NCBI RefSeq assembly: GCF_016734805.1
Contig: NZ_JAERQG010000002.1
Span: 992,001-1,056,000 of the forward strand
From: Marivirga atlantica
GTDB lineage: Bacteria; Bacteroidota; Bacteroidia; Cytophagales; Cyclobacteriaceae
Reading direction: 5' to 3'
Length of the DNA: 64,000 nucleotides
The position numbers were made by a program, and so were the translations under genes. A model generated the notes under the pieces. The model saw nothing but the letters and a program-made list of their open reading frames with translations, was not told where the DNA came from and did not search any database. Of this stretch, positions 1,130-17,636 are shown one piece after another. Each line of letters begins with the position of its first letter. Positions within the stretch are counted from its first letter, which is position 1.

Positions 1130-1423
1130 TGGCTCTATCTTATTATTATATTTTTCTTCAGATAAATTTCATTCAACTGATGCTCAATATAGCGACAGAT
1201 ATTCAATAGACCGTATGCTAAAGCTTTTAGAAATCAGTTTTACAGGCATGTTTTTTAGGTTTTAGTTGAACTTATTTAATATGTAAGATAAAGGAAATTA
1301 GTAAATTTGTATAAGCTACATCCTTAATTTTCTATAAATTAAAGCTTTTCTTCGTTGAACGTATCAACTAAACTCAATTGCTAACAATAAACTCTAAACT
1401 ATCTCTGTTGTTAAGCTGTGTAA

Positions 1424-1840: not shown

Positions 1841-1910
1841 AAATCTAACTTTTGATTTACTAACAGCGAGTTCATTTAGTTGTTCCTAGCATATGAAAAA
1901 GAAGTGCTTA

Positions 1911-2606: not shown

Positions 2607-2660
2607 AATATCCTAGATAGATCCTACTTATAAATAGCGTTAATTTACGAAATACTAGCA

Positions 2661-2680
2661 ATACCCAAGTTTGGGTATTT
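2661..2680. promoter_or_regulatory. Inverted repeat, candidate operator
   Basis: AATACCCAA-GT-TTGGGTATT has perfect 9-bp arms around a 2-nt spacer. It lies between the end of the LuxR-type gene and the start of the DUF998-like gene, 55 bp upstream of the latter's ATG. The short spacer and lack of a following T-run (on the minus strand it leads into GCTAGTATTTCG) argue for a protein-binding site over a terminator. LuxR-type HTH proteins bind dyads of this size, so the neighbouring regulator is a natural candidate. Confidence 0.5.
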
Positions 2681-2698
2681 ATAACGCAAAATTAACCA

Positions 2699-2998
2699 TC
2701 AGACTAAATTAAAGGCCAAAGCAAACTGAAATAACTCCACTGCAGATTTAGCTTTCAGCTTTCTGATAATATTTTTACGATGTTGCTCCACGGTAAGCCT
2801 GCTAATATAAAGCATCTCCCCTATTTGTGGATTATTATAACCCTCTGCCAGGTATTGTAGAATTTCCTTTTCGCGCTGAGTTAAACATTGAAACTTTTGT
2901 TGATGTGCTAATCTGAATTGTTCCTGCTTCCTGATTCTTTTTAATTTAAAGGCAAAGGAGGAAAGCTTATCTCGCCTTTGTAAGGTTGTGGTTGACAT
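2699..2998 (-). CDS. Small LuxR-type HTH transcription regulator
   Basis: A stand-alone LuxR/GerE HTH domain fills the C-terminal ~65 residues: LTQREKEILQYLAEGYNNPQIG then a recognition helix around SRLTVEQHRKNIIRKLKAKS. There is no receiver or other sensory domain; the N-terminal ~35 residues are basic (KLKRIRKQEQFRLAHQQK). The chosen start is the ATG at 2996-2998 (MSTTTLQRR). The frame is open upstream to an ATG at 3037 and a GTG at 3043, so up to 15 more residues are possible. It may control the membrane-protein gene just downstream. Domain certain, target inferred. Confidence 0.85.
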   Translation of the reverse strand: MSTTTLQRRDKLSSFAFKLKRIRKQEQFRLAHQQKFQCLTQREKEILQYLAEGYNNPQIGEMLYISRLTVEQHRKNIIRKLKAKSAVELFQFALAFNLV

Positions 2999-3239
2999 GG
3001 TTCGTATATTAGGTTGACGTAATGAAAATACAAACATCTGCACCGATCAGTCAAGTTAAAATTCAAATATTTTCAAATAAAGCTTTGATTCGCAATTAGT
3101 TACGATGGTATTTAAATTAAATAATCTACCTTAATGGACACTCATCTTATAAAAAGATCATACTCATTACTTTGAGTGAAATTAATTTTATTTATTAAAA
3201 CCCAACCACATTCCTTAATTTACAGCTTAAAATGAAGAC

Positions 3240-4481
3240 ATGAGTATATTTCAAATCATAACTATCTTATTTGTTATCTCGGCTCTTTTCAGCTACATCA
3301 ATGTCCGCTTTTTCAAGTTGCCCACCACCATTGGCTTAATGATTATGGCGATGATATTCACTTTGTGTATTACGATATCCTCTTTATTTACTGATGTTCT
3401 GTTAAAAGAAGCAGTTGCTATCATCAACTCAATTGATTTTAAAGAAGTATTGATGGATGTGATGCTAAGTTTCCTGCTTTTTGCCGGTGCTTTGCATACT
3501 AATTTGACACACATTAAAACACAGCGCTACCCAATCTTTTTGTTCGCCACCTTTGGCGTGTTAGTATCAACCTTCCTGATTGGCACTATAGCTTTTTATT
3601 TACTTAATTTCATGCACTTACCTATCAGCTACCTGCAAGCCTTGCTTTTTGGTGCCTTAATCTCTCCTACTGATCCCATTGCCGTATTAGGGATCCTTAA
3701 AAAGGCTGGAGCACCTAAAAATCTTGAAACCAAAATTGTAGGAGAAAGTCTTTTTAATGATGGTATAGGCGTTGTGATTTTCCTTACGCTCTTTCAACTG
3801 GCGGCAAGCCCTGAGGCTGATGTTTCTTTGTCGCATATAGGTTTTCTCTTTCTGGAAGAAGTAGGCGGAGGAATCCTGTTAGGTTTGGGCCTGGGTTACC
3901 TTACCTATTGGCTGTTAAAATCTATTGATAATTATGAAACGGAAGTGATGCTCACCATTGCTATGGTCAGCGGAGGTTATTTGTTGGCCAGCAGTCTGCA
4001 TTTTTCAGGTCCATTAGCCATGGTGGTGGCCGGTCTTTTCATAGGCAGCGACAATAAAAGAACCACATCAATGAGTGAGGTGACTGAACGCTATGTAGAT
4101 AAGTTCTGGGAGTTGTTGGATATATTGCTTAATGCCATACTCTTTGTTTTAATAGGCTTAGAAGTATTGATCTTGAGCTTTGAAGGTAATTTCGTTCTTG
4201 CAGGCCTCATACTTATTCCAGTGGCACTATTGTGTAGATACCTAGCCCTTTCAGGTCCTATTATCCTCTTAAAAAAGCGATTGAACTTTGTACCCAACAC
4301 AGGTCTGATTATGACCTGGGGAGGATTGAGAGGTGGAATTTCTATTGCTCTTGCCCTTTCCTTAACCGATGAAATGAATCGCGAACTTATTGTGGCCATT
4401 ACTTATATCATCGTTGTCTTTAGCATAATTGTACAAGGCCTTACTGTAGAGAAAGTGCTGAAATGGTTGAAGGTCAGTTGA
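3240..4481 (+). CDS. Na+/H+ antiporter, CPA1/NhaP family
   Basis: This 413-aa protein has about 12 membrane helices and the CPA1 signatures SPTDPIAVLGIL (~residue 141), GESLFNDGIGVVIF (~168, with the ESLFNDG ion-binding Asp) and GGLRGGISIALALS near the C-terminus. It should exchange Na+ (or K+) for protons across the cytoplasmic membrane, giving pH and salt homeostasis. There is no C-terminal RCK or cyclic-nucleotide domain, so it is the short NhaP type. It is transcribed alone, divergent from the LuxR-type gene, and ends at a strong hairpin shared with the convergent peptidase gene. Confidence 0.93.
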   Translation: MSIFQIITILFVISALFSYINVRFFKLPTTIGLMIMAMIFTLCITISSLFTDVLLKEAVAIINSIDFKEVLMDVMLSFLLFAGALHTNLTHIKTQRYPIFLFATFGVLVSTFLIGTIAFYLLNFMHLPISYLQALLFGALISPTDPIAVLGILKKAGAPKNLETKIVGESLFNDGIGVVIFLTLFQLAASPEADVSLSHIGFLFLEEVGGGILLGLGLGYLTYWLLKSIDNYETEVMLTIAMVSGGYLLASSLHFSGPLAMVVAGLFIGSDNKRTTSMSEVTERYVDKFWELLDILLNAILFVLIGLEVLILSFEGNFVLAGLILIPVALLCRYLALSGPIILLKKRLNFVPNTGLIMTWGGLRGGISIALALSLTDEMNRELIVAITYIIVVFSIIVQGLTVEKVLKWLKVS

Positions 4482-4507
4482 GGATAACACTTGATTGGTT
4501 TCAATGA

Positions 4508-4545
4508 AATAAGGGGAATCATTTTAAGAACTGATTCCCCTTATT
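4508..4545. terminator. Bidirectional intrinsic terminator
   Basis: A perfect 14-bp stem, AATAAGGGGAATCA (4508-4521) with TGATTCCCCTTATT (4532-4545), closes a 10-nt loop. It lies between the convergent antiporter gene (ends 4481) and the ABC/M1 gene (ends 4549), and has the G/C block and A/T flanks expected of a two-way terminator. Confidence 0.85.
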
Positions 4546-4548
4546 GAC

Positions 4549-7500
4549 TTATAATGCTTTTAAATTATTACTAACATTCTTATCGAGTAATACATGATGA
4601 GGATCGATACCAACTAAGGTCGGTTTGTCTTCTACTATGAAAGATAATTCTGTTATCTCTGCATCAATAAATTGGTCTTTAAGGTAAAGTATATGCTGCT
4701 CTTTAAACCTATCTCCGTTAAAGATTCCAATCTTAACGGGCAGACTAAATTCAGCCTTCTCTTTGCTGCCGAAACCATCTTCTTCCCATTTTTCAGCTTT
4801 TAAAGTCATTGTAACTTCATAAGTGCCGTTGTCTAATTCTTTATAATCAGCCTGCTCAACTGATACATCATAGGTTACTATTTTCTTAAACCAATCATTT
4901 AATAACTCATGCTGAGTTGGTGGTGTTACTGCATATAATTCAGTCAATAACTCATTAACGGTAGCGGGTTCTTGCGGGTAAGCATACTTATCAATCAGAT
5001 TTTTGAGCGCCTTATTCAATGCCGCTTCTCCAATTAATTCCTTTACGGCATACATGACCTTTATCCCTTTGCTATAAGGGATATGTTGATGATCATATCC
5101 GGCTTTATACAACGGCACTTCCTCCTTAAATCCTCTATTTCCAAAATAAATACCTTGCTCAATATCCAAGGCATCGGTAATAAGCCTGTGGTTTTTATAG
5201 GCATGTTCATAGATCATCAATTCTGTATATTGTGCAAGTGTTTCCGAAAGTACAATAGCTCCTTCCATAACAGGTGCATCAAGCTGACCGCCCCACCATT
5301 GATGTCCCAACTCATGCCCTACAAACTGAGCAATTACATCTATGTCCGATGAGTCTTTTATCTGTGTAATAAAGCCCATCTTTTCATTATGATAAATAGT
5401 ATTCGGATAGCTGGTTGCTCCAAAACCACCTGTAAAACTTGCTACTTCAGCATACCTGAAATGATCGTATTGATAGGCTCCGAAATGCTTAGTGCAGTAA
5501 TCAAGTGTTTGTTTGCTTAGCTCTATAATCCTGTCCACATTATATTGGTGTTTAGGATGCGCATAGACTTCAATATCCACTCCCTTATACGCGACAGTTT
5601 TCTTTGCATAGACTGCTGATGAAAAGGCAAAACGAAAAGGAATTTTCCGATCCATTTTGTAATGGAAATAATTTCGATTGCCTTCAGTCCATTGTTTGAT
5701 AAGCTTACCCTGACCAATAGCAGTTTGCGGTGCTTTGGTTGATACGATGGTCTCATAACTGATATAGTCATACATATCTTTACCAACTGCTTTTTCTTTT
5801 TCAAAATCCTCAAATGTATTGATGCGCTCAATCCTTTCAGGCATACCACGTTCTTTTCTGGCATCTACGCTTGTAATTTCCATCTCAGGATTATAACCGA
5901 ATTGTGGAAAAAACTCGCTGATCCGCATAAATGAGCCGTTTCCTATAATGGCATTCTTGATATCATGCTGTGCAAAACCTGACCATCCGGATTCAAAACG
6001 AACAAATACGGAACATGCTTCATCAGGTTTTAAGACTTCATCGAAGTCTATCCAGAATTGACCAAACCGCCCATCAGGATTTACTAACTCTCCTTTTTCA
6101 ATGAAAATAGAATCTAATCTGGAGGCCTTATGCAAATAGAGCAAAGCTTTACGCATAGGCTTTTTAGTTTTATTCCTTATCTGATAGCTTACTTCCACTT
6201 TATATTTTTGTTGATCAGGATATAAGTCTACCTTAGAATTAACTGAGGTAATTACAGGTTGAGGCATCTCCTCATAAGCCTTGTACTTTTCTTCATATTG
6301 TTGTGCCCAATCTCTCACCTGTTCATTGGTAACATACTCATGTGCTATATTGGTTTTATAGAAAATAAAACCTGCACTTCCGAGGGGCACCAATATTCCG
6401 AAAGCCATAAACAGACTATTTCTTAGCGTAAGCTGTCTGAAAAAATTGAAAATTCGCTCTTTAAAGCTATAGGCTTCACCCCTTCTCCAGAAACCATAAG
6501 TTAGGAGGCCGAAAATCATTGCCAAACCTACCGAGTACAGCATACGCCAATGAAATGCCTCCGCATATGCGCCAAAACCATTAAAGTCAGTATAGTCTAC
6601 TGGTGATAAAGTAAAGAGTGGAGCTGCATACCTTAATAGCGGATGTTCAATTCCTATGATAGTACTCAATGGGGAGGTGAATAATAGTACAACTGCGGCT
6701 GTTAGCAACATACCAAGGTATCTGTTGGTTACTACTGATTGTATTAATAACGATAATACCGACACTAAAACCAATGGCAATCCCGCATAATAGAAGACTT
6801 TGAGATAGACCAAAAGCTCAAGCTCAGTATAGCCCATACTTAATTGAGTGCCAATGGTCATCAGTATATTTACCATTATAAAAATGAATGGAATACTAGT
6901 AAGGGCTACTAGATTAGAACTATATAATATGAAATTACTTACCGGGCTTGCATCATTGATACTATGTATTTTCAATAGTCTATTTCTCCATATTTGCTCG
7001 TTGCTGTAAAAAATGATTATAAATAGTCCGAATACAGGTATCATATCCATAATCAGACTTATCATATTGGCAGTAATCGGGTAAGGTCCTTCCATTCTGC
7101 TACCACCGCTTAGCATGCCAAATAGCTCCATGCCAAAAATGAAAATCCATAGTAACAGTATGATCAAAAATGGTATAGACTTAACGATGGCATTCAACTG
7201 AATCCTGAATAAGGACCACCACATTAATCTTCTAGTATTACGATTATTTGGATCAACTTCAACAGGATGATAAGCGGCTGATGGTACATCCCTGGTATCT
7301 TGAGCTTCGGATTTTTTTTCTTTTCTATCATTTAGCGTTCTAAATGAAAAGTTCGAATAGGTAAAATATAGGCTTATCAGTGCTACAGACAACCATATAA
7401 TTCTATTAATTAGAAAATGACCTTTAAGCGCAATACTTTGTGTATTCATTTCGATGATGGACCAATCTTTGGTTTGCTCAAAGAAGGCAGACATTCCTAA

Positions 7501-8145
7501 TGGATCTAGCAAAGCAGCTATTTTTACTGCCTCAGCACTAGCAGGAGAAACCCCTGCCATCCATGGTGCACCGGCAAAAATAGAGCCCGCCATATAAAGC
7601 ACATAAAGTAGAATACCAGAAACATAAACTCCTATCCTATTCTTGGTTAGACTTGATACTGCTAATGTAAATGCTGAGAATAGTAATACATTAGGTAACA
7701 TAATAACCAATAAGTTCCAGCCATAATGCCAAACAGGAAAGTCTCCTAATCGCTCGGCAGCTACGGAAGGTGATAGAGGTGCCAACATCATACCCAGCAC
7801 AATAAATGAACAGGTAATGAAGGCTGCCGAAAAGAGACCAATAAATTTGGACCCAAGGTATTGAAATTTATTTACCTGAGAGGTGTTTATTAGTGCTTCC
7901 ATTTTACTCTCTGAAGCTCTGAGAATAGCGTTGGCTCCTAAAAGACTTACTACAAAAATGGCTCCTATAGAGGTTAGTGCTATACCATAACCTATTAAAT
8001 AAGGTGAATTAATGTTAACCTGTGGTATTTTTATTCCGAAGGCAGTTAACATAAAACCAAAAAAGACAAATGCCACCGCACCTACCAAAAACAATAGGCT
8101 CTTGATATGATACTTTATTTCAAATGCCAGTAACCTGCTTAACAT
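4549..8145 (-). CDS. ABC-2 permease fused to M1-family zinc aminopeptidase
   Basis: The 1198-aa protein joins two ABC-2 type permease units (helices over residues ~1-270 and ~310-600) to a C-terminal gluzincin peptidase (~650-1198). Zinc ligands are H944 and H948 in HELGH plus E968 in VLSETLAQY; HELGHQWWG is typical of M1. The HEXXH-to-Glu gap is one residue longer than in classic M1 enzymes, a trait I recall from other Bacteroidota fusions of this type. The peptidase should face the periplasm. The gene overlaps its ATPase partner (8139-9041) by 7 bp, so they form one exporter. The substrate is unknown; a self-protection or peptide-clearing role is inference. Confidence 0.9.
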   Translation of the reverse strand: MLSRLLAFEIKYHIKSLLFLVGAVAFVFFGFMLTAFGIKIPQVNINSPYLIGYGIALTSIGAIFVVSLLGANAILRASESKMEALINTSQVNKFQYLGSKFIGLFSAAFITCSFIVLGMMLAPLSPSVAAERLGDFPVWHYGWNLLVIMLPNVLLFSAFTLAVSSLTKNRIGVYVSGILLYVLYMAGSIFAGAPWMAGVSPASAEAVKIAALLDPLGMSAFFEQTKDWSIIEMNTQSIALKGHFLINRIIWLSVALISLYFTYSNFSFRTLNDRKEKKSEAQDTRDVPSAAYHPVEVDPNNRNTRRLMWWSLFRIQLNAIVKSIPFLIILLLWIFIFGMELFGMLSGGSRMEGPYPITANMISLIMDMIPVFGLFIIIFYSNEQIWRNRLLKIHSINDASPVSNFILYSSNLVALTSIPFIFIMVNILMTIGTQLSMGYTELELLVYLKVFYYAGLPLVLVSVLSLLIQSVVTNRYLGMLLTAAVVLLFTSPLSTIIGIEHPLLRYAAPLFTLSPVDYTDFNGFGAYAEAFHWRMLYSVGLAMIFGLLTYGFWRRGEAYSFKERIFNFFRQLTLRNSLFMAFGILVPLGSAGFIFYKTNIAHEYVTNEQVRDWAQQYEEKYKAYEEMPQPVITSVNSKVDLYPDQQKYKVEVSYQIRNKTKKPMRKALLYLHKASRLDSIFIEKGELVNPDGRFGQFWIDFDEVLKPDEACSVFVRFESGWSGFAQHDIKNAIIGNGSFMRISEFFPQFGYNPEMEITSVDARKERGMPERIERINTFEDFEKEKAVGKDMYDYISYETIVSTKAPQTAIGQGKLIKQWTEGNRNYFHYKMDRKIPFRFAFSSAVYAKKTVAYKGVDIEVYAHPKHQYNVDRIIELSKQTLDYCTKHFGAYQYDHFRYAEVASFTGGFGATSYPNTIYHNEKMGFITQIKDSSDIDVIAQFVGHELGHQWWGGQLDAPVMEGAIVLSETLAQYTELMIYEHAYKNHRLITDALDIEQGIYFGNRGFKEEVPLYKAGYDHQHIPYSKGIKVMYAVKELIGEAALNKALKNLIDKYAYPQEPATVNELLTELYAVTPPTQHELLNDWFKKIVTYDVSVEQADYKELDNGTYEVTMTLKAEKWEEDGFGSKEKAEFSLPVKIGIFNGDRFKEQHILYLKDQFIDAEITELSFIVEDKPTLVGIDPHHVLLDKNVSNNLKAL

Positions 8146-9041
8146 GCTACTCCCTCCTTTCTACCTATTGGGAAACCACGCATTAAAGAGAAATAAACCT
8201 CTTCGAGACCGGCATCTACAAGTTCAAAACCTTCTTCTGGCTGGCGATCAGCATAAACATGTATTTGCGTATTTCCTGCAAATAAGCGGCTAGATATCAC
8301 ATTAAATGATTTTTGATGAGCTTCTAGGGTCTCCTTTTTAATTTCCTTCTTCCATATATGTCCATTTAAATTGGTCATCAGTTCCTTAGGAGAACCTTCC
8401 AGTAATATCTTGCCACCACCCATCACAGCCATTTTGGTGCATAAATCTCTCACATCTTCTACTATATGCGTGGACAGCACAACTATCACCTGCTCACCAA
8501 TTTCACTCAATAGGTTATGAAATCTATTACGTTCTTCAGGATCTAGTCCTGCAGTCGGTTCATCAACAATAATGACTTTTGGATTACCTAACAGGGCCTG
8601 TGCAATGCCAAATCGTTGCTTCATCCCTCCTGAGTAGCTACTCACTGATTTCTTTCTATGTTGGTATAAATTAGTCTGCACTAAAAGAGATTCAATCTGT
8701 TCCTTTCGGATTTTTTGATTGAAAATCCCTTTTAGTATGGCCATGTGATTGAGTAGTTCAACAGCTGACACCTTGGGGTATACGCCAAATTCTTGAGGTA
8801 AATAACCCAAATGTTTACGGATAAATTGAGGCTGCTCGCCAATGTCAGTACCATTAAAGATTACATTTCCTTTATCTGGTAATTGAAGTGCAGCAATTGT
8901 ACGCATCAATGATGATTTACCAGCGCCATTTGGGCCGAGTAAACCGAACATTCCATTTTCAAGGGTGAGATTAATTTGCTGTAAGGCTTTCACACCATTA
9001 CTATAGGTTTTTGAGAGATGATTAATTTCGAGTGTATTCAT
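8139..9041 (-). CDS. ABC transporter ATP-binding protein
   Basis: This 300-aa ABC-2 exporter ATPase has Walker A GPNGAGKSS (~residues 36-44), the Q-loop near YLPQEFG, signature SSYSGGMKQR, Walker B VIIVDEPTAGLDPEE and the H-loop in VVLSTHIVED. About 90 residues follow the ATPase fold, as is common in exporters of this class. It pairs with the overlapping permease/M1 gene downstream. Divergent from it is a LytS/LytTR two-component pair, and the 182-bp spacer holds two direct-repeat pairs that could bind the LytTR regulator. Regulation of the exporter by that pair is inferred from position. Confidence 0.92.
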   Translation of the reverse strand: MNTLEINHLSKTYSNGVKALQQINLTLENGMFGLLGPNGAGKSSLMRTIAALQLPDKGNVIFNGTDIGEQPQFIRKHLGYLPQEFGVYPKVSAVELLNHMAILKGIFNQKIRKEQIESLLVQTNLYQHRKKSVSSYSGGMKQRFGIAQALLGNPKVIIVDEPTAGLDPEERNRFHNLLSEIGEQVIVVLSTHIVEDVRDLCTKMAVMGGGKILLEGSPKELMTNLNGHIWKKEIKKETLEAHQKSFNVISSRLFAGNTQIHVYADRQPEEGFELVDAGLEEVYFSLMRGFPIGRKEGVAC

Positions 9042-9098
9042 TTTTCTTGAGTTGGTTTACCCGAAACTAGAGTGGACAAACTAAGGCAACAATTTAGA

Positions 9099-9128
9099 AT
9101 GATGAGCTGGTCAAATATTGTGATGAAC
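9099..9128 (+). promoter_or_regulatory. Direct repeat pair A, candidate LytTR-regulator site
   Basis: ATGATGAGC (9099-9107) and GTGATGAAC (9120-9128) agree at 7 of 9 bases and start 21 bp apart, leaving a 12-nt spacer. This is the architecture known for LytTR proteins such as AgrA (9-bp direct repeats about two helical turns apart). It lies 58 bp upstream of the ABC ATPase start, and the orientation is opposite to pair B. Binding is inferred. Confidence 0.6.
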
Positions 9129-9149
9129 TACCTTGTTTAGTTGGTTTTA

Positions 9150-9180
9150 CTTTCATCATGTATATTGAGCCTTTCATCAT
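9150..9180 (-). promoter_or_regulatory. Direct repeat pair B, candidate LytTR-regulator site
   Basis: CTTTCATCAT occurs exactly at 9150-9159 and 9171-9180, again with a 21-bp period. Read on the minus strand the half-site is ATGATGAAA, the same core as pair A. The array ends 6 bp before a likely -33 TTG at 9187-9189, where an activator would sit. Confidence 0.65.
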
Positions 9181-9186
9181 ACTTTT

Positions 9187-9217
9187 TTGATAAAGGAGTT
9201 CAATTCATCTTTATTTG
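9187..9217 (+). promoter_or_regulatory. Putative promoter of the LytS/LytTR operon
   Basis: TTG (9187-9189), a 20-nt spacer and TTTATTTG (9210-9217) match the Bacteroidota form TTG-N-TAnnTTTG with one mismatch in the -7 element. The start ATG follows at 9224, so the leader would be nearly absent. A weak -7 element would fit activation from the adjacent repeats. Confidence 0.45.
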
Positions 9218-9223
9218 TAGCCT

Positions 9224-10720
9224 ATGAAAGTGTTAAAAAGTTTGGAGAATTTTCTCCTTAAGAGTGATAGCTGGATTTTCATTGTCTATCTATTGGTTGC
9301 CAGTCATTTAGAAGTACAGATGCATGATGAAATGTTGATTGAAGACTATTTAGACAATATTTTACTGCTGTTTGCCATTTTTTCGCCACTGTTATTCCTT
9401 GAGTTTTTTAAATCTAAGTTCAGTGATCTATCAAAAAATAAGTTTACACTTCATCTGTCTTATTTTGGTATTCAGGCCATTTATTTGGTCATTATAAATC
9501 TACTAAATACAAGTCTGTATAACACGCCTCTATTCAGCTTACCAGAAGAGATTCTGGTACTTGTAAGTGTTTATTGGATATTGATAGCGATTGGGCTTCA
9601 TGTATTTAAAATATACAGAGGACGCTTTAAGTGGGTAAAAAAGATTAGATATATCAACCTGAATAAGGCACTTATATTATCACTCCTGCTAATAGCTGGC
9701 CTAATGGCATTACTTATCATTTCAGATTATGACAATTTTACAAGAAACCGCATAGTGGATGCAGGCATTGACTATAAAATAGTAATGAAAAGATTTCCTT
9801 TATTTCTAAGCATTTGGCTTCAAGTGTTTATAGCCTATATGGCAGGATTCTTCTTCTATTACCTTAATGCTAATTTCCTCATCCCTAAGCTATTAAGGCA
9901 AAGAGGTATTCTCTTTTACATTTTCGGTGGTTTAGGAACTATCTTTATCTTCTATCCTTTGATGGGTACTATTTTAAAATATCTCCCACTTCATCAAACA
10001 GTGCCGATCTTATTGCCTAGTGAAAATTATCAGGTGATGGACCCTATTAATGGAGCCGTTGTTTTTGGAATTATGATTGTTAGCATACCCCTCGTTCTCA
10101 CCTTGGATTGGTTCAAACAGAACAATGAAATAGTTCAACTTGAAAAACAAAATATTGAGACAGAATTAGACCTTTTGAAACAACAGATAAATCCACATTT
10201 CTTCTTTAATACCTTGAATAATTTGTATGCCATGAGCCTTGCTAAATCAGATCAAACCTCAGAAGTGGTCATGCAATTATCAGAATTAATGCGTTATGTC
10301 ATTTATAGAGGTAAGGAAGAAAAAGTCACCCTGGAGGAAGAATTAAAATACATTGAGGATTATATTAGTTTGCAACAAATCAGGCTACATCAGAAACTTG
10401 ATTTAGCTATATATAAAAACATTTCAAACAAAGACTTAACCCTTGCCCCGCTCCTATTAATTATTTTGGTAGAAAATGCTTTTAAACATGGCATTGAGCC
10501 TGCTGAAGGAAGTGCTCACTTAATCATCGATATTAAAGCCGATGAAAATACATTTTTCTTCCAATGTAGTAATACCTATGAAGAAGAAACTAGCAAGAAT
10601 GGCATAGGATTAGAAAACTTAAAGCGCAGGCTAGAAATTTTGTATCCGGAGCAACACCAACTATCTTTAATTAAAGAAGACAAACAGTTTATTGCTCAAC
10701 TTAAAATAAACTTTGCATGA
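9224..10720 (+). CDS. Sensor histidine kinase, LytS/YehU type
   Basis: The 498-aa protein has about eight N-terminal membrane helices (residues ~15-300) and no extracytoplasmic sensor domain, then a His_kinase/HATPase pair. The phosphorylated His is H325 in QQINPHFFFNTLNNL, the signature of LytS/YehU kinases. The N-box ILVENAFKHGIEP and G-box NGIGLENLKRR are present. The stop overlaps the start of the LytTR regulator (ATGA, 10717-10720), so the two are co-translated. The ligand is unknown; a link to the divergent exporter is inferred from the shared regulatory region. Confidence 0.93.
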   Translation: MKVLKSLENFLLKSDSWIFIVYLLVASHLEVQMHDEMLIEDYLDNILLLFAIFSPLLFLEFFKSKFSDLSKNKFTLHLSYFGIQAIYLVIINLLNTSLYNTPLFSLPEEILVLVSVYWILIAIGLHVFKIYRGRFKWVKKIRYINLNKALILSLLLIAGLMALLIISDYDNFTRNRIVDAGIDYKIVMKRFPLFLSIWLQVFIAYMAGFFFYYLNANFLIPKLLRQRGILFYIFGGLGTIFIFYPLMGTILKYLPLHQTVPILLPSENYQVMDPINGAVVFGIMIVSIPLVLTLDWFKQNNEIVQLEKQNIETELDLLKQQINPHFFFNTLNNLYAMSLAKSDQTSEVVMQLSELMRYVIYRGKEEKVTLEEELKYIEDYISLQQIRLHQKLDLAIYKNISNKDLTLAPLLLIILVENAFKHGIEPAEGSAHLIIDIKADENTFFFQCSNTYEEETSKNGIGLENLKRRLEILYPEQHQLSLIKEDKQFIAQLKINFA

Positions 10721-11445
10721 AGTTAAGGGCCCTGGTGATAGATGATGAACCTCTTGCGCATGATGTTATCAAAACTTATGCGGAAGATATTCCTTTTTTA
10801 GACATAGTGGGACACTGTTATTTAGCGACAGAGGCGATTAGCTTTTTGAATGAAAACCATGTAGATCTGCTTTTCCTCGATATTCAAATGCCAAAGCTTA
10901 AAGGGAATGAGTTTTTAAGAACGCTCACTAAGAAACCGGCAGTAATAATCACTTCTGCTTATGAAGAATATGCACTCGAAAGCTTTGAGTTAGATGCTAC
11001 GGATTATCTCTTAAAGCCCTTTAGGTTTGATCGGTTCTTAAAGGCTGTCAATAAAGTTCATGACCACATTCAACTAAAAAATGAACAATTGCATGAAAAT
11101 GAAGCCAATGAAGAAGGGAATCATGAAGAAAGCACTTCAAGTTATTTAATGCTCAAGGTAGACAAAAGGCAAATTCATATTGACAGTCGTCAAATCAATT
11201 ATTTGGAAAGCTATGGCAATTATGTAAAAGTATGGATAGATACAGCCTATCATCTTACACCACGCACGTTGAGTAGTTTTGAAGAACAATTGAATAACAA
11301 AGAGTTTTTAAGAGTGCATAAATCCTTTATAGTCCAAAAGGCTTCAATAAATTATATTGAAGGCAACAGAATTGTGCTTAAAAATAAATCAGAAATACCC
11401 ATAGGTAAAAGCTATAAACAACAGTTTAAGGAAGGTTTATTTTGA
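10717..11445 (+). CDS. LytTR-family response regulator
   Basis: The 242-aa protein has an N-terminal receiver domain (acidic pocket D9-D10, phospho-acceptor D55 in LLFLDIQMPK, Lys in YLLKPF near residue 103) and a C-terminal LytTR DNA-binding domain (~145-242). Family hallmarks include the ILYLESYGNYVK-like stretch and FLRVHKSFIVQ. An acidic linker (EQLHENEANEEGN) joins them. It overlaps its kinase by 4 bp. LytTR domains bind tandem 9-bp repeats 21 bp apart, and two such pairs sit upstream of this operon, so autoregulation and control of the exporter are likely. Confidence 0.94.
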   Translation: MKLRALVIDDEPLAHDVIKTYAEDIPFLDIVGHCYLATEAISFLNENHVDLLFLDIQMPKLKGNEFLRTLTKKPAVIITSAYEEYALESFELDATDYLLKPFRFDRFLKAVNKVHDHIQLKNEQLHENEANEEGNHEESTSSYLMLKVDKRQIHIDSRQINYLESYGNYVKVWIDTAYHLTPRTLSSFEEQLNNKEFLRVHKSFIVQKASINYIEGNRIVLKNKSEIPIGKSYKQQFKEGLF

Positions 11446-11466
11446 TAACAGCCAGAGTGATGCAGG

Positions 11467-12063
11467 TCATTGCTCTCTGATTTTGACTCCTGTCACCCTT
11501 TCGCATACTTTAAGGAATTCATCCTGTAGTTGTTCATCATCTGCAGCTTGGTTGTAGGCTTGCGGGTGCTGATGAAAATAGTATTGACCGCTGGCCGTGG
11601 CATCAGGATGAGTTGCTAACCAAAGCTGGGTTTCATACCCTTTCTGCAAGTCATCAGGCGCACCAGCTCCGCCCATTTTTGTAGGTACCCAACCCGGATT
11701 CACTGCATTCACTTTTATGCTCGGGTATCGTTTGGCCAAGGCTTTGGTGAGTAGCAAAATATGTAATTTAGTATCTCCATAGCCAATACCTTTACAGTCA
11801 CCAGCCAATTGCTCCAATTTAGCTTGTCCATTGCTGTGCAGACCAGAGCTCAAATAAATCAAACGAGGAGGTAATTTTACCAAAGCCGTAAGCAGATAGG
11901 GAGCAAAGGTGTTCACCTCTGCCAGGCGCTTTCCATCTCCCTGATAGATGCCAGCATTATGAATAATGGTGTCAAAAGGTCCTTGTGCATTAATTTTATC
12001 TGCTAAAGCTTTGGTTGCTTCTCGATCTGATAAATCTCCGATGATATAAAGCTTACCAGCCAA
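11467..12063 (-). pseudogene. Short-chain dehydrogenase lacking its NAD-binding N-terminus
   Basis: The frame encodes the middle and C-terminal parts of an SDR: the NNAG-like IHNAGIY, the catalytic Ser region IYLSSGLH, Y-x3-K in YGDTK and NPGWVPTKMGG. What is missing is the first beta-alpha-beta unit with TGxxxGxG. The only start in frame is a TTG at 12061-12063, with an in-frame TAA just upstream, and just 28 bp separate it from the next gene, so the missing ~35-45 residues are not in another frame nearby. It is probably a remnant left by a deletion. A functional truncated enzyme is possible but unlikely. Confidence 0.65.
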
Positions 12064-12091
12064 AATTTTGTTTTATTTCTCTTGAAAACAA

Positions 12092-12349
12092 TCACTTAAC
12101 GCGTGATTCAGAGTACAAGTCGTAAGCTGCCACCAATGACTCTCTCACGGAAGAACTTCGGAAGCTTTCATAAGAGTTTATTTGTTCTCGCTCTTCAACA
12201 TAAACAGGAAGGTAAACTTCATCAAAGGCATCCCATACAATAAGTAAATAGGCGTAGCCAATTTTGCTGTCCCGACCTTTTTCAAGCCATTGGTCAAACT
12301 CTGCTTCATCTAAACTTTTGGGGAAATCCGTATTATCAAACATTGTCAT
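12092..12349 (-). CDS. Hypothetical protein
   Basis: About 85 aa, acidic, with no signal peptide or membrane segment; I do not recognise it. The chosen start is the ATG at 12347-12349 (MTMFDNTDF); the frame runs upstream to a TTG at 12367. It contains SLDEAEFDQWLEKGRDSKIG, then a hydrophobic core (YAYLLIVWDAFDEVYLPVYV) and a Ser-rich end. It lies between another small hypothetical and the truncated SDR, all on the minus strand, but with no overlaps that would prove an operon. Confidence 0.6.
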   Translation of the reverse strand: MTMFDNTDFPKSLDEAEFDQWLEKGRDSKIGYAYLLIVWDAFDEVYLPVYVEEREQINSYESFRSSSVRESLVAAYDLYSESRVK

Positions 12350-12407
12350 TAAAGTATGAGTATGCAAATTAAGCAGGCCATGGCTTAAAGAGCAATTCTT
12401 TTAGAAT

Positions 12408-12656
12408 CTATCCTACTCTAACTATGTTGGAAATATTTTCTAATTCAATGCGGTAGCTGGCCCATCGCTTACCCTTTACAATAAGTGCCGGTGGTAATTC
12501 AGGTACCTTTACTTCACTGTATTCTTTGGCTTCCTTCGCAGCTGTTTCATGCGATGATAGGTTAACATCTATCACATCGCCATTTTTCATTATTACCTCT
12601 AGTTGAGCACCAATCGGTAAATCTTTAATTATGTCGTTTACTTCTTGCTCTGTCAT
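12408..12656 (-). CDS. Hypothetical protein
   Basis: An 82-aa soluble protein of unknown function. The first 30 residues (IIKDLPIGAQLEVIMKNGDVIDVNLSS, positions ~9-35) look like a small beta-barrel of the kind in Sm-like or translation-factor folds: a GAxLEV strand, then a GD turn and another strand. The end again alternates hydrophobic and polar residues. A perfect 16-nt palindrome (12682-12697) lies 26 bp upstream of its ATG and could be its operator. The fold comment is a guess; the reading frame is credible. Confidence 0.6.
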   Translation of the reverse strand: MTEQEVNDIIKDLPIGAQLEVIMKNGDVIDVNLSSHETAAKEAKEYSEVKVPELPPALIVKGKRWASYRIELENISNIVRVG

Positions 12657-12681
12657 ATAACCGTTGTTTTTATGCTAAAAC

Positions 12682-12697
12682 CTCTTTTGCAAAAGAG
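12682..12697. promoter_or_regulatory. Perfect 16-nt palindrome, candidate operator
   Basis: CTCTTTTGCAAAAGAG is a perfect dyad without spacer, placed in the gap between the divergent genes 12408-12656 (minus) and 12822-13151 (plus) and closest to the former. With no loop or T-run it is not a terminator, which leaves a dimeric repressor site as the simplest reading. Confidence 0.45.
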
Positions 12698-12821
12698 TTG
12701 TTTGAGGTACCCCATAAATTAAGCGTTTCACAAAATGGGAATTAGGCGAATCACTCATGGCAGGCTTTTCTAACTGATTTAAATTTGAAATATCAAAAAT
12801 TAAAACCAAACTATTTCAATT

Positions 12822-13151
12822 ATGCCTAGATATACCAATTTAAAAATGGAAGCTTTTGAGAAACAAATCACATCAGACCCTAATGCTATAGTGTTGGATG
12901 TGAGAACTCCGGCTGAATACGCAGATGGTCATCTGGAAATGGCCATAAATGTACCTAACATTAAAGAAATAATAGATTCATTAGATCCTTCAAAGCACTA
13001 TTTTCTACATTGCCGAGTTGGTGGCAGAAGTGCAGTGGCTTCATTGGTGCTAGCCAATCGCGGATTTCAACATGTATTTAATTTAAGTGATTTGATTGAA
13101 AATACTTCACTTCCTCTTGTTAAAAACAAAGCTAAAAGCCTTGCGGCATAA
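12822..13151 (+). CDS. Rhodanese-like sulfurtransferase domain protein
   Basis: A single rhodanese domain of 109 aa. DVRTPAEYADGHLEMAINVPN (residues ~25-45) is the CH2A-type element, and the active loop HCRVGGRSAVAS carries the catalytic Cys that takes up the persulfide sulfur. The C-R-x-G-x-R-S loop fits single-domain GlpE-like enzymes. No signal peptide, so it is cytoplasmic. It has no operon partner: 80 bp separate it from the open frame leading into glnS. The sulfur acceptor cannot be told from context. Confidence 0.92.
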   Translation: MPRYTNLKMEAFEKQITSDPNAIVLDVRTPAEYADGHLEMAINVPNIKEIIDSLDPSKHYFLHCRVGGRSAVASLVLANRGFQHVFNLSDLIENTSLPLVKNKAKSLAA

Positions 13152-13322
13152 TATTTAAAGAACTTTCGTTGGACAATACAAAACTATTCAGCGATTTAAA
13201 TAATGGTGGCTGAGGTGTTTACAATCTTTTAATGATTGTTTTTGGTAGAGCAAGGTTTTACCTCAGCCCCGTTATTAAATTAATGAGCTCTCTCTTAAAG
13301 CTATTTATTATCCACTTACTCA

Positions 13323-13352
13323 TTGTAATTGCGTGTATTTCCGATAATTTTG
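13323..13352 (+). promoter_or_regulatory. Promoter of glnS
   Basis: TTG (13323-13325), a 19-nt spacer and a perfect -7 element TAATTTTG (13345-13352) fit the Bacteroidota consensus. The -7 ends 20 bp before the ATG at 13373. This supports that start over the upstream ATG at 13232, which would lie before the transcription start. Confidence 0.7.
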
Positions 13353-13372
13353 CTCGTCAATTATCAATACAA

Positions 13373-15406
13373 ATGAAAGAAGGATATAACTCATTAAATT
13401 TTATAGAACAGATAGTAGCCGATGATTTAAAAGAAGGCATATCTCAAAAGTCATTAAGATTTAGATTTCCCCCTGAACCTAATGGTTACTTACACATTGG
13501 TCATGCAGCTTCCATTTGCTTAAATTTTGGGTTAGGGGAAGATAACCAGGCCCCGGTTAATTTGCGTTTTGATGATACCAACCCTATTAAAGAAGAGCAG
13601 GAGTTCGTTGATTCAATTAAAAACGATATCGAGTGGTTAGGTTTTAAATGGGCAAAAGAGTGTTACACTTCTGATTACTTTCAACAGCTTTACGATTGGG
13701 CGATACAATTAATAAAAGATGGCAAGGCCTATGTTGATGGTCAATCAGCTGCCTTAATGGCCGAACAAAAAGGCACTCCAACAACTCCAGGAAAGGCAAG
13801 TCCTTACAGAGATACCCCAGTTGAAGAAAACCTTCGATTATTTGAGGAAATGAAAGATGGTAAACATGCAGAAGGGACTTATGTATTGAGAGCAAAGATT
13901 GATATGGCCTCTCCTAATATGCTCATGCGTGATCCGCTCATGTACCGTATTCTTAACAAGCCCCACCATAGAACAGGAAGTGAATGGTGTATATATCCGA
14001 TGTACGACTGGGCTCACGGCCAATCAGATTATGTGGAGCAGGTTTCCCACTCTATCTGTACACTAGAATTTAAGCCTCACAGAGAGTTATATGATTGGTT
14101 CCTTGATCAAATCATCGACCCGGACAAACTAAGACCGAAACAAAGAGAGTTTGCCCGTAGAAATTTGAGCTATACTGTAATGAGCAAAAGAAAATTGCTC
14201 GAATTAGTACAAAGCAAAACCGTAGCTGGTTGGGACGATCCTCGTATGCCTACTATTTCCGGTTTACGCAGAAGAGGTTATACGCCAGAATCGATCAGGA
14301 AATTCAGTGAAGTATCCGGCATCACCAAACGTGATAGCGTAACCGATGTGTCATTGTTGGAATACTGCATCAGAGAAGACCTCAACAAAAATGCTACAAG
14401 AGTGATGGGCGTGCTTGATCCTGTCAAGTTAATTCTGGGCAACTACCCTGCCGACAAAACAGAAATGTTAATAGCAGAGAATAATCCTGAGATAGAAAAC
14501 TCTGGATCGCATGAGGTGCCTTTCAGTAAAGAATTATACATTGAAAGAGAGGATTTTAAAGAAGAGGCCAATAGCAAATACTTCAGGTTAACATTAGGTA
14601 AAGAAGTAAGACTAAAAAATGCCTATATCATTAAAGGTGAGTCTGTTGAAAAGGATGTAAATGGTCGTATTACAGCTATTCATTGTAGCGTAGATTTAGA
14701 TTCACGCTCAGGAAGTGGTACCGAAGCCAGCATGCGCAAAGTGAAAGGTACGTTGCACTGGGTTTCTATTGAGCATGCCGTAAAAGCTGAAATAAGAGAG
14801 TATGACCGACTATTCCTTGATGAAGCACCCGATAGCCACGAAGAAAAAGGTTTTATGGAGTTCATCAACCCTGATTCACTCAACATAGTGAAAGAAGCTT
14901 ATGTAGAGCCTTTCCTTCAGAGTGCTTCTATAGATGACAAATTTCAATTTCAGCGAGTAGGCTATTTCACTTTAGACAAGGATAGCAAAGCAGATCACTT
15001 GGTTTTTAATAAGACAGTTGGCTTAAAAGATTCATGGGCCAAACAACAGCCTAAGGACAATCAGCCGAAGCAGCAGTCAAATAAAGGCCAGCAAAATCAG
15101 CCTAAGAGAAGTGCAATTAGCGAAATCCAGAAAATAAGTAAAAAATACACCAACCTATCAGGTGATAAACTGGAAAGTGCCAAAGAGAACATTCTCCAGC
15201 TAGCGGAAGAAGTGACTTATGAGGATTTACAACCGTTATTTAATACTGCAGCTAAAAAGGTAGGAACGCGCATTGGCGTTACCCTTGCGCTAGGCGTATT
15301 ATTAAAGAAGGGGCAGGCAAAGAATGATGAGATAGAGCAATTTATCGAGGCTGGAAAAAATGACCCTAATGAGTTGCTCAACGAAGCGGCCAAAATGATT
15401 GGTTAA
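13373..15406 (+). CDS. glnS: Glutamine-tRNA ligase with extra C-terminal domain
   Basis: GlnRS charges tRNA-Gln with glutamine. From the ATG at 13373 it has 677 aa. The class I motifs are HIGH in FPPEPNGYLHIGHA and the KMSKS-equivalent VMSKR. The anticodon-binding beta-barrels end near residue 555, the usual length of a bacterial GlnRS. Then come a Gln/Lys/Asn-rich linker (~556-580) and a ~95-residue helical domain (~581-677) that I do not recognise. The frame is open upstream to 13232, but a promoter at 13323-13352 and a hydrophobic, non-GlnRS prefix argue for 13373. A terminator follows. Confidence 0.95.
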   Translation: MKEGYNSLNFIEQIVADDLKEGISQKSLRFRFPPEPNGYLHIGHAASICLNFGLGEDNQAPVNLRFDDTNPIKEEQEFVDSIKNDIEWLGFKWAKECYTSDYFQQLYDWAIQLIKDGKAYVDGQSAALMAEQKGTPTTPGKASPYRDTPVEENLRLFEEMKDGKHAEGTYVLRAKIDMASPNMLMRDPLMYRILNKPHHRTGSEWCIYPMYDWAHGQSDYVEQVSHSICTLEFKPHRELYDWFLDQIIDPDKLRPKQREFARRNLSYTVMSKRKLLELVQSKTVAGWDDPRMPTISGLRRRGYTPESIRKFSEVSGITKRDSVTDVSLLEYCIREDLNKNATRVMGVLDPVKLILGNYPADKTEMLIAENNPEIENSGSHEVPFSKELYIEREDFKEEANSKYFRLTLGKEVRLKNAYIIKGESVEKDVNGRITAIHCSVDLDSRSGSGTEASMRKVKGTLHWVSIEHAVKAEIREYDRLFLDEAPDSHEEKGFMEFINPDSLNIVKEAYVEPFLQSASIDDKFQFQRVGYFTLDKDSKADHLVFNKTVGLKDSWAKQQPKDNQPKQQSNKGQQNQPKRSAISEIQKISKKYTNLSGDKLESAKENILQLAEEVTYEDLQPLFNTAAKKVGTRIGVTLALGVLLKKGQAKNDEIEQFIEAGKNDPNELLNEAAKMIG

Positions 15407-15428
15407 TTAATCTAATAATTACGAAAGT

Positions 15429-15456
15429 AAAAGGGAGCCTAAGAGCTCCCTTTTTT
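15429..15456 (+). terminator. Intrinsic terminator of glnS
   Basis: AAAAGGGAGC (15429-15438) pairs with GCTCCCTTTT (15445-15454) around a 6-nt loop and runs straight into a T-tract, 23 bp after the glnS stop. Confidence 0.9.
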
Positions 15457-15546
15457 ATTATTTAAAATTTGGTGCAGCTTTTTGAGTCTAATTATAAAAT
15501 ATAATAATTGAAGCTTTACCAAGCTGAGGGAATTTGAATGATTCAT

Positions 15547-17628
15547 CTAAACTCTTTTAACATCTATTAAAAAATCCAGGGCGTGACCTTGAGAATCATC
15601 TACTGGAAGTTCGACCTTTACTTTGGTGTATTTGTATGGTTCAGATTCAAGACTTATCTGCCCTTTTAGTACGTCTACTGATTTCCTCACAATATAAAGA
15701 CCTAAGCCATTACCTTTAGAGTATTCAGTACCCACATAGAACATATCAAATAACTTATTAGACAATTTATCATCTACACCAATACCATTATCCTTGACTT
15801 CAATACATAGCTTATCAGCCTCCTGAGAAATTTTTAGCTGGACTTTCCTGATATTTGAGTGTTTGATACTGCTGAAAAAGAAGGCGTTATCTAATAAATT
15901 GCTGATTATCACTTCTACAAGGTAGGGAATAGTAACCACCGTTAATTCTTTGTTGCAGTCTAATTCAAAAGTAAGGTTTCCAGCTTCAATAATTGAACTA
16001 AATCTTTCAGAGACCTCTTTAGCCAGATTATATATATTAACCTTTTTAAACTTACCTGGCTGATGTATTTCACTTATGGTGCTCAGTTTCTTAAGAAGCT
16101 TATCCATTTGACTATTTGTCTTAAGAATAAGGTTGGTTAGCTGATCATTCTTTGTATCTCTTGATATGAGGTCACTTAAACCGGCAATTGAACAAATAGG
16201 TGCTCTTAAATCATGTGATGCCCGATAGAGCACCATGTCTAATTCTTTAAATGTTTGCTCAAGTAAGTTAGTTCTTTCAGAAACTATAGTCTCAAGGTTC
16301 TGATTAATGTTATTGACCTTTTCGTTGGCAACTACTAATTGTCTTTGCTGCTTTTTAAGCCTACCCCATAAATAAATTAAGAGTATAATGAGCAAAGCAA
16401 AAAATATAGTGATCGCACTTATAAACAATATTCTCTGTTGAAAGCGTTTTTTTTCATCTAACCTCTTTTGTTCACTTTCAGATAGCTTATCCTCTAACTC
16501 GGTTAAGTTGAAGTATTTAACCTTCAATTCGTTGATCATTTCTTTATAACCACTGAGGTTTTCATAGAATTCATTCTCATTAGAAAGAAGTAATTCTTCT
16601 AATTGATTGATATCATCTAATAAGCTGGCGCGTTCCTGTTTATTCAGGTTGGCTATGCCATTGCTAAGTTTTTCTTTTACCAATTCAATTTTATTTGTGA
16701 AGGCAGATTTTTGAGCATTTAATCTATTCCCCTCTCGTCTCACCTCTTTTAGTAAATTTTCCAAATCACGTTCTACAATTGTTGTATCTGTGATATATGT
16801 TATAAAGGAAGTAGAATCATTTGATTGACTAATTTCGGCCAACAAGGATTGAAATTTATCATCTAATTTTTGCCTGGTGGATTCACTTAATTCTTCTATT
16901 TTAGCATCCTTTAGAAGCGTATAGAATAATGTAAGATCGTCAATTGAGTCAATCTTATTTGAAATAAAAATTTCCCAATTGGGATCAGATGCTGACTTAT
17001 CAATCGCATCTAATGAAGGTGTATCCTTATCTATAATTGTTACTTGTTGCTTTAGTCTTTCAACCCTAAGAACATACTGATCGTTTTGATAACTGACATT
17101 TTGAGGAATGTAACCTTCCACATTAAATTGACTTGTTTCTATTATGCGTTCATTTAATGCCAGTGGGACAATGGCTATTCCATTAGTATTAGTAGCTATA
17201 TTTACAGTTTTCTCACCAATATAGGTTAGCTTAGCTCCAGCAACAACATCATTGTTTTCATCTTTCAGTAAGAGCTTTACATCTCGGTAGCTTTTCTTTC
17301 GGATAGTAAGCTCTAAAATGCCTTTGCTCAAATTCCAGGAAGCAGCCTCCAGGGTAGGATCACCTACTTCAACAGATTTTATTGGAAGCTCATCTTTTTT
17401 AAGGTTGGCAAATGCCAAACCTTTATCATTAAGCTCAACGTATTTTCCTTGATTAATAGAGATTTTAATATTTCCGTAAGGTGTCAGTGATTCATTGAAA
17501 GCCTTAATTTGAATAACTTGAGTATCCTGTGCCTTTAAATGCTCTACTGATATTAACAAAATGCCTATTAATAGTATATGATATACACTTGTGTAAAGCC
17601 TTTTATATTTAAAAGCTCTAACAGACAT
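15547..17628 (-). CDS. Histidine kinase at the end of the adhesin/PorP operon
   Basis: The 693-aa protein has a signal peptide (cut near LKAQD), a periplasmic region with two carboxypeptidase-regulatory-like beta domains (~35-200), a long coiled coil (~230-395), one membrane helix (~402-424), then HisKA with H472 in YRASHDLRAP, N-box NLLDNAFFFS, and G boxes DNGIGV and GNGLGLYIV. It lacks a receiver domain and no response regulator is adjacent. It sits 8 bp after the PD40 gene as the last member of the HYR-PorP-PD40 operon. Sensing the state of the surface machinery is inferred from that position. Confidence 0.9.
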   Translation of the reverse strand: MSVRAFKYKRLYTSVYHILLIGILLISVEHLKAQDTQVIQIKAFNESLTPYGNIKISINQGKYVELNDKGLAFANLKKDELPIKSVEVGDPTLEAASWNLSKGILELTIRKKSYRDVKLLLKDENNDVVAGAKLTYIGEKTVNIATNTNGIAIVPLALNERIIETSQFNVEGYIPQNVSYQNDQYVLRVERLKQQVTIIDKDTPSLDAIDKSASDPNWEIFISNKIDSIDDLTLFYTLLKDAKIEELSESTRQKLDDKFQSLLAEISQSNDSTSFITYITDTTIVERDLENLLKEVRREGNRLNAQKSAFTNKIELVKEKLSNGIANLNKQERASLLDDINQLEELLLSNENEFYENLSGYKEMINELKVKYFNLTELEDKLSESEQKRLDEKKRFQQRILFISAITIFFALLIILLIYLWGRLKKQQRQLVVANEKVNNINQNLETIVSERTNLLEQTFKELDMVLYRASHDLRAPICSIAGLSDLISRDTKNDQLTNLILKTNSQMDKLLKKLSTISEIHQPGKFKKVNIYNLAKEVSERFSSIIEAGNLTFELDCNKELTVVTIPYLVEVIISNLLDNAFFFSSIKHSNIRKVQLKISQEADKLCIEVKDNGIGVDDKLSNKLFDMFYVGTEYSKGNGLGLYIVRKSVDVLKGQISLESEPYKYTKVKVELPVDDSQGHALDFLIDVKRV

Positions 17629-17636
17629 TTATACTT

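Follow-up and report, generated by a model that had tools for sequence, protein, structure and literature searches.

The recognition consensus of AgrA-type LytTR regulators contains GTT, and in the agr system the P2 promoter drives the regulator's own operon. In Staphylococcus agr, direct repeats for the LytTR regulator AgrA are located immediately upstream of each of two promoters, P2 and P3, within one intergenic region (PMC4227749). LytTR Regulatory Systems (LRS) likewise use direct repeats; these are 11–13 bp apart, lie mostly about 10 bp upstream of the -35 element and serve positive feedback, and in S. mutans, for systems such as HdrRM and BrsRM, they lie 4–11 bp upstream of -35, with some of the systems linked to ABC transporters (PMC6193735). 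In E. coli the receiver-LytTR regulator YpdB has a single target gene, yhjX, and a direct repeat of the 10-bp GGCATTTCAT, which contains TTTCAT (PMC4847170). LytTR regulators are common in Bacteroidetes: 4 to 20 per genome have been reported in five Flavobacterium genomes, in an article whose available part does not give the sites (PMC5395568). Judged by title and the opening of the abstract, none of the literature matches listed deals with a LytTR operator from this phylum.

Here we describe two mirrored pairs of direct repeats between an exporter operon and a kinase-regulator operon in the window, a 64-kb stretch of Marivirga atlantica DNA. From their sequence and setting, we consider it very probable that the four sites are LytTR operators of the neighbouring response regulator, which would couple its autoactivation to activation of the exporter.

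Genes, repeats and predicted promoters of the intergenic region

The gap between the two operons is 182 bp long and extends from the start codon of an ABC ATPase (9041, minus strand) to that of a histidine kinase (9224, plus strand). The exporter operon begins with the ABC transporter ATPase (300 aa, 8139..9041, minus; Pfam ABC_tran 2.3e-30), which is 50–71% identical in ten relatives, and continues with an ABC-2 type permease fused to an M1 peptidase domain (1198 aa, 4549..8145, minus; Pfam ABC2_membrane_3 1.6e-8, Peptidase_M1 4.8e-14). In the M1 domain we see by eye HELGH and then 19 residues to the glutamate of SETLAQY; in M1 peptidases the usual spacing from HExxH to the glutamate is 18, one fewer than here. 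No functional study of a permease-peptidase fusion appeared in the available parts of the literature matches listed.

On the other side of the gap the first gene encodes a histidine kinase (498 aa, 9224..10720, plus; Pfam His_kinase PF06580 3.1e-26), which we read as a membrane protein of the LytS type from its family and sequence. It is followed by a response regulator of 242 aa (10717..11445, plus) that has both parts expected of a LytTR response regulator, a receiver (Response_reg 1.3e-19, 70.9 bits with a cut-off of 30.2) and a C-terminal LytTR DNA-binding domain (LytTR 4.1e-19, 69.0 bits with a cut-off of 22.6). We presume that this regulator would be the protein that binds the four sites. 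For these proteins no NCBIfam row shown was above its cut-off, and the regulator came nearest to BtsR (125.1 bits, cut-off 246). BtsR and YpdB are related systems whose kinases are of the LytS type. Among the ORFs of at least 80 aa in positions 1–20000 of the window, we noticed no neighbour that resembles AgrB. Further along, a long ORF at 13232–15406 resembles by eye a glutaminyl-tRNA synthetase with an unusual hydrophobic N-terminal stretch; perhaps its start is called too early.

The gap contains two direct-repeat pairs, each with a start-to-start offset of 21 bp, which together form a mirror-image set of four sites. On the plus strand the copies are ATGATGAGC (9099–9107) and GTGATGAAC (9120–9128), an imperfect pair with 7 of 9 positions identical. 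On the minus strand TTTCATCAT occurs exactly at 9151–9159 and again at 9172–9180, and here the identity extends to 10 bp, with CTTTCATCAT starting at 9150 and 9171. Read towards the exporter, the putative exporter-side operator is AGTTCATCAC (9120..9129, minus), the repeat farther from the promoter, and then, 21 bp from it, the nearer repeat AGCTCATCAT (9099..9108, minus). Read towards the kinase, the putative kinase-side operator is CTTTCATCAT twice, the farther copy at 9150..9159 and the nearer at 9171..9180 (both plus), again 21 bp apart. The assignments come from the repeat match and a leave-one-out matrix described below. Direct repeats of about 10 bp with a start-to-start spacing of 21–22 bp, the form of a LytTR operator, are therefore present on both sides.

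An earlier note on this DNA had placed 21-bp-offset pairs at 9099/9120 on the plus strand and 9151/9172 on the minus strand, next to a LytTR regulator gene and facing opposite genes. The positions agree with ours, the Pfam LytTR match confirms the regulator, and the kinase-side pair does point to the kinase operon and the exporter-side pair to the exporter operon. The common core that it gave, ATGATGA, is found in three of the four copies and not in the remaining one; what all four, and so both exporter-side copies, share is TGATGA.

With the window 10-mer as probe, we compared the pairs with 2,000 dinucleotide-shuffled versions of the gap. The kinase-side pair was reached in none of them (p ~0.0005, with a probe taken from that same pair), and for the exporter-side pair p was ~0.014. 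With a matrix built from other genomes only, the two pairs were ranks 1 and 2 of the 127,916 positions in the window; the sites behind this matrix had first been chosen for their resemblance to the window 10-mer, a choice that favours the kinase-side pair. The core by itself is not rare: TGATGA-N15-TGATGA is found at 14 places in the genome, two of which are the array, and its reversed control at 2. This count and the p of the exporter-side pair are what could be said for chance repeats in AT-rich DNA. The exporter-side pair would be weak if this genome were all there was, and the real evidence is conservation.

Each pair adjoins a predicted promoter. On the exporter side (minus strand) a putative -33 element, the TTG of AAATTG, lies at 9090..9092, 6 bp beyond the promoter-proximal repeat, and a putative -7 element, TAGTTTCG, at 9062..9069. 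On the kinase side (plus strand) a putative -33 element TTTG lies at 9186..9189, 5 bp beyond the promoter-proximal repeat, and a putative -7 element, TTTATTTG, at 9210..9217, which would leave a very short leader with almost nothing before the start codon, a point against the proposed reading. Both -7 elements match TAnnTTTG at 5 of 6 positions, both spacers are 20 bp and both -33 elements are at a conserved position. The Bacteroides -33/-7 consensus is TTTG/TAnnTTTG (PMC2483708).

Across loci the TTG or TTTG starts 5–6 bp past the second repeat. Alignment column 41 was T in all 16 pairs that had been chosen by their repeats alone, and among 20 pairs (10 loci, G332 left out) T occupied column 41 in 20 and column 42 in 19, while column 43 was G in 15. 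A TAnnTTTG-like -7 element comes 17–21 bp further on. When spacers of 17–23 were allowed, the 22 flanks collected 98 of 132 possible matches to it; the mean for mononucleotide shuffles was 73.1 (sd 3.9), and 0 of 2,000 reached the observed value. Sigma-70-like sites in 8950–9350 were at chance level, with 2 found and 1.7 expected. The weak promoter proposed earlier, 6 bp past the proximal pair, was thus not borne out as such a site, and the pairs adjoin Bacteroidetes-type -33/-7 elements instead.

By sequence prediction, then, the repeats are just upstream of the -33 elements, as LytTR operators are upstream of -35. Two LytTR molecules side by side on one face of a pair in this position are the layout of autoactivating LytTR systems (PMC6193735; PMC4227749), and we therefore read the region as one of positive feedback plus exporter activation. 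The regulator might instead bind the four sites and repress one or both operons, or activate one and block the other. Two operator pairs share one short gap, in which a bound protein could interfere with polymerase. We nevertheless regard repression as decidedly unlikely, since both pairs are wholly upstream of the -33 elements at a near-fixed distance, which is the activation position in LytTR systems according to the available parts of two reports (PMC6193735; PMC4227749), and since no repeat in the window overlaps a predicted -7 element or a start codon.

Conservation and specificity of the repeat pairs

Searches with the kinase at E <= 1e-60 gave matches in 7 of 295 genomes of the family, 5 of 390 of the order and 4 of 395 of the class, samples that overlap and each include the window's own genome. 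The divergent order, with the M1-permease and ABC ATPase on one side and the kinase and LytTR regulator on the other, is kept in ten relatives of the class (G003, G057, G025, G261, G332, G317, G482, G933, G949 and G813; the window is G000). Their kinases are 32–46% identical to that of the window, and the matched proteins overall 25–71%. Family searches round G317 and G933 found no further locus, and a contig search with the kinase as query gave a distant match in one firmicute, which was dropped. G275 and G280 have the kinase and a regulator nearer to the sister clade described below, the ABC/M1 pair is absent from the stretch fetched, and neither model nor matrix scoring found a good repeat site in them.

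We found that an offset of 21 bp is favoured in the relatives as well. With the window 10-mer as probe, the two-site score summed over the ten relatives was 169 at offset 21 on the kinase side (at most 141 at the other offsets of 12–33) and 158 on the exporter side (at most 140), making 21 the sole clear outlier. A motif-free test, in which the best 10-mer direct repeat was summed over ten regions, gave 88 at offset 21, and no other offset exceeded 74; G332 was left out of this test and G025 was represented by its array-bearing part only. When 2,000 dinucleotide shuffles were made per region, the kinase-facing pair had p <= 0.0045 in 10 of the 11 loci, the window included, and p 0.12 in G057. 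The exporter-facing pair had p <= 0.0025 in 7 of these 11 loci; its p in the window was 0.014, and in G003, G057 and G813 its best match by the window 10-mer was misplaced or not significant.

The leave-one-out matrix spans 43 bp (the pair plus -33), was built without the genome under test and was run over 12–64 kb on both strands. Its training sites were first chosen by likeness to the window 10-mer, and G332, whose regulator is 99% identical to that of G317, was omitted from the matrix training as well as from the sequence model and the phase statistic described below. In 11 of 11 loci one kinase-facing and one exporter-facing intergenic site were the top two. The earlier note had made its proposal depend on conservation of the repeats where the gene order is kept, and this is what we observe in 10 of 10 relatives. 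Chance repeats are already refuted by the offset-21 peaks, both with the window motif and motif-free, together with these ranks in loci with matched proteins so far diverged, and we give that explanation practically no credence. The conserved columns of the half-site are TTnnTCAT. A simple pattern search of 8 genomes that allowed 3 mismatches was not used as evidence, since its matches were far too many (29–87 per strand per genome, and 9–55 for the reversed control).

Both sides are clear in 7 of the 10 relatives. G057 is the weakest case and is degenerate on both sides, with 21.2 and 16.6 bits by the leave-one-out matrix and 9.8 for the next position. Its pairs were missed by consensus matching, from which G057 was first read as lacking repeats, a reading overturned by the matrix; the sequence model gives a 6.4-bit partial match, and G057 is absent among the genome-search matches listed. 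The exporter side of G003 scored 16.5 bits by matrix (next 6.7) and 14.4 bits by model. By the leave-one-out matrix the exporter side of the window scored 14.7 bits (next 12.6 in 64 kb) and that of G813 8.6 bits (next 6.9), the last being doubtful and near noise.

It could be that only the kinase-side pair works as an operator, with a copy on the exporter side that is weak or vestigial. The scores of G813 and of the window would fit this, and the kinase-side pair outscored the exporter-side pair in 10 of 11 loci by the leave-one-out matrix and in 9 of 10 even when the matrix was made from other genomes' exporter-side pairs. Still, the exporter-facing pair is among the top two in every locus, reaches at least 20 bits in 7 of 11 and marks the start of a lengthened operon in G025; we find a vestigial exporter side unlikely.

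In G025 the exporter-facing pair is separated from the ABC ATPase by two reading frames that run the same way as the ATPase, one of 77 aa without a Pfam match and one of 273 aa with a Pfam Rce1-like (CAAX-protease-like) domain (L069 8303–9124, minus). The exporter-facing pair (L069 9438–9468) is about 50 bp upstream of the first inserted frame and not beside the ATPase gene. The pair seems to follow the start of the lengthened operon, in which the frames and the ATPase would share one transcript. CAAX/Rce1-like proteases are often tied to peptide processing or self-immunity.

A sequence model was built from 16 pairs and searched in 16 whole genomes; of the roughly 5,900–10,500 first-look candidates in each, 150 were scored. 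Below E 1e-3 it matched just the 16 training pairs, in nine genomes, and training pairs match by construction. With 150 candidates scored per genome and part of the weak matches listed, weaker targets may exist elsewhere in these genomes. The third-best match in the window's genome (E 0.014) is inside the best-match range of six genomes of the same genus without the locus (0.0039–0.087).

The ABC/M1 fusion itself is common, with matches in 188 of 390 genomes at E <= 1e-80. We ran the model on 25 ABC/M1 loci in which 1.5 kb of sequence was available upstream of the M1 match, and the best score was 10.8 bits; neighbours were checked in 12 of these loci, five of which have the sister-clade pair and seven none. 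In G347 a 10.8-bit model match (E 0.1) lies 33–71 bp upstream of the ATPase, with no kinase-regulator match nearby, which shows that traces of the motif can occur where the regulator is absent. G477, where the sister-clade pair is present, has the second-best model match, of 8.5 bits, just upstream of the ATPase gene. Eight regulator-less transporter loci from seven genomes scored -1.8 to 7.6 bits by the matrix, with no good match. Second ABC/M1 copies are present in the window's genome and in G003; they have no kinase-regulator match beside them, and their best matrix scores are 11.4 and 6.7 bits. The second fusion of the window's genome and its ATPase (28% identical; L152 2752–7235 and 8527–9670, G000:C7:555000–568000) have upstream of them, in the same direction, what appear by eye to be an ECF sigma factor-like frame (203 aa) and a possible anti-sigma (180 aa), and no LytTR pair.

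The sites might be those of another DNA-binding protein, either a global one or one with its gene elsewhere, and the LytTR gene would then be no more than a neighbour. The match in G347 could be taken this way. So could the half-site, which counts against the operator reading: the kinase-side repeats have TTT in place of the GTT of the AgrA-type consensus, and the one exporter-side repeat with GTT lacks the full consensus. In the loci examined, however, the good pairs occur together with this clade of regulators; there is no other strong match in the nine carrying genomes at 150 candidates each, and no good one in the eight regulator-less loci scored by matrix. Direct repeats 21 bp apart are typical of LytTR proteins, and the GTT-type repeats of the sister clade are also 21 bp apart, as expected if site and regulator change together. 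We therefore consider a different binder very unlikely and retain the neighbouring regulator as the probable one.

Spacing between the pairs and the sister clade

The distance from the start of the exporter pair to the start of the kinase pair is 41 bp in G813, 51 bp in the window and in G482, 52 bp in G949, 62 bp in G003, G057, G261 and G933, and 63 bp in G317 and G332; in G025 it is 458 bp. The spacings of the ten loci other than G025 (41, 51–52 and 62–63 bp) are near multiples of 10.5 bp, and they differ from one another by whole helical turns. The phase statistic, for which G332 and G025 were left out, was R 0.97 with a Rayleigh p of ~2e-4 (n=9), a p that is only a guide as the loci are taken as independent though related. 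In a tree of ATPase, regulator and kinase the window (51) groups with G003 (62) at support 90, and G482 (51) groups with G261, G317 and G332 (62–63) at support 50. Since the spacing differs between tree neighbours, it seems to have changed by about one turn more than once. Four changes by 10–11 or 21 bp would have a chance of ~0.002 under uniform indels of 1–25 bp, a rough count on a tree with several weak nodes (support 32–58). The constant phase suggests that all four bound molecules would be on one face of the DNA, where they may interact.

Five loci (G341, G369, G472, G477 and G461) have the same four-gene order and more distant regulators, 38–46% identical to the array-bearing ones over four full-length rows, the row of G472 ending early at a stop. 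The LytTR region differs between the clades (LTPRTLSSFE-like versus I-HEKIS-like). The window motif was not found as a good pair in these five loci, whose best matrix scores were 10.3–13.9 bits; in three of them (G341, G477 and G461) the best match is weak, intergenic and faces the exporter. Upstream of the kinase, GTT-type repeats are found in three copies at 21-bp steps in the four sister-clade loci aligned (intergenic regions L140, L142, L144 and L145; G369 left out). With the seed GGTTG, which was chosen by eye, offset 21 was the best of 15–27, with a pair sum of 35 (next 32) and a triple sum of 49 (next 42). This is suggestive only of site and regulator changing together between the clades. 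In G341 and G477 the pair spacing is 74.

A more ambitious reading is that the four sites form one helically phased operator, in which four LytTR molecules on a single face would couple both promoters. The spacing would then be quantised at 41, 51–52, 62–63 and perhaps, in the sister clade, 74, only whole-turn changes being tolerated, and the half-site would drift with the recognition region of the regulator (TTnnTCAT versus the GTT type of the sister clade). We put this forward tentatively, with rather less than even confidence. If true, it would make a LytTR control region one cooperative unit, in a phylum for which the literature matches listed showed no described LytTR operator. If the phasing holds up, the loci would offer a natural series of 41, 51, 62 and perhaps 74 bp for cooperation of LytTR dimers across a divergent promoter region.

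Proposed regulation and comparison with known systems

Our model is that two molecules of the phosphorylated regulator would bind each pair, both on one face of the DNA, and that the bound regulator would aid RNA polymerase at the adjacent promoter. A signal sensed by the kinase would in this way switch on the kinase-regulator operon, giving positive feedback, together with the ABC/M1-peptidase exporter. Being closer to the consensus, the kinase-side pair should be the first to fill; because it scores higher, the regulator's own operon is predicted to respond at lower regulator levels. We would guess that the signal is a peptide, given that the exporter carries a peptidase domain and that one relative has a CAAX-type protease. 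The data, backed by 11 loci, define a half-site with its spacing, a promoter geometry and a predicted target, and they link a widespread permease-peptidase fusion to a sensor.

By sequence arrangement the region has the two-promoter layout of agr, with a pair beside each divergent promoter, one of them the regulator's own; by rank this is true of 11 of 11 loci, weakly in G057, G003 and G813. It differs from agr P2/P3 in phylum, promoter type and half-site and in having a kinase of the LytS type. The output here would be an ABC/M1-peptidase exporter, whereas that of agr is the regulatory RNA RNAIII. In LRS the LytTR protein is encoded with a membrane inhibitor, whereas here its partner is a His_kinase protein and the regulator has a receiver; the available part of the LRS report describes no second pair facing a divergent operon (PMC6193735). 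For YpdB the available part of the report describes no mirrored autoregulatory pair (PMC4847170), and the conserved columns found here do not correspond one-to-one with GGCATTTCAT. LytTR direct-repeat operators as a kind, and agr P2/P3 with a similar two-pair plan, were already known; what is new is the half-site and the conserved phasing, along with the phylum and the target.
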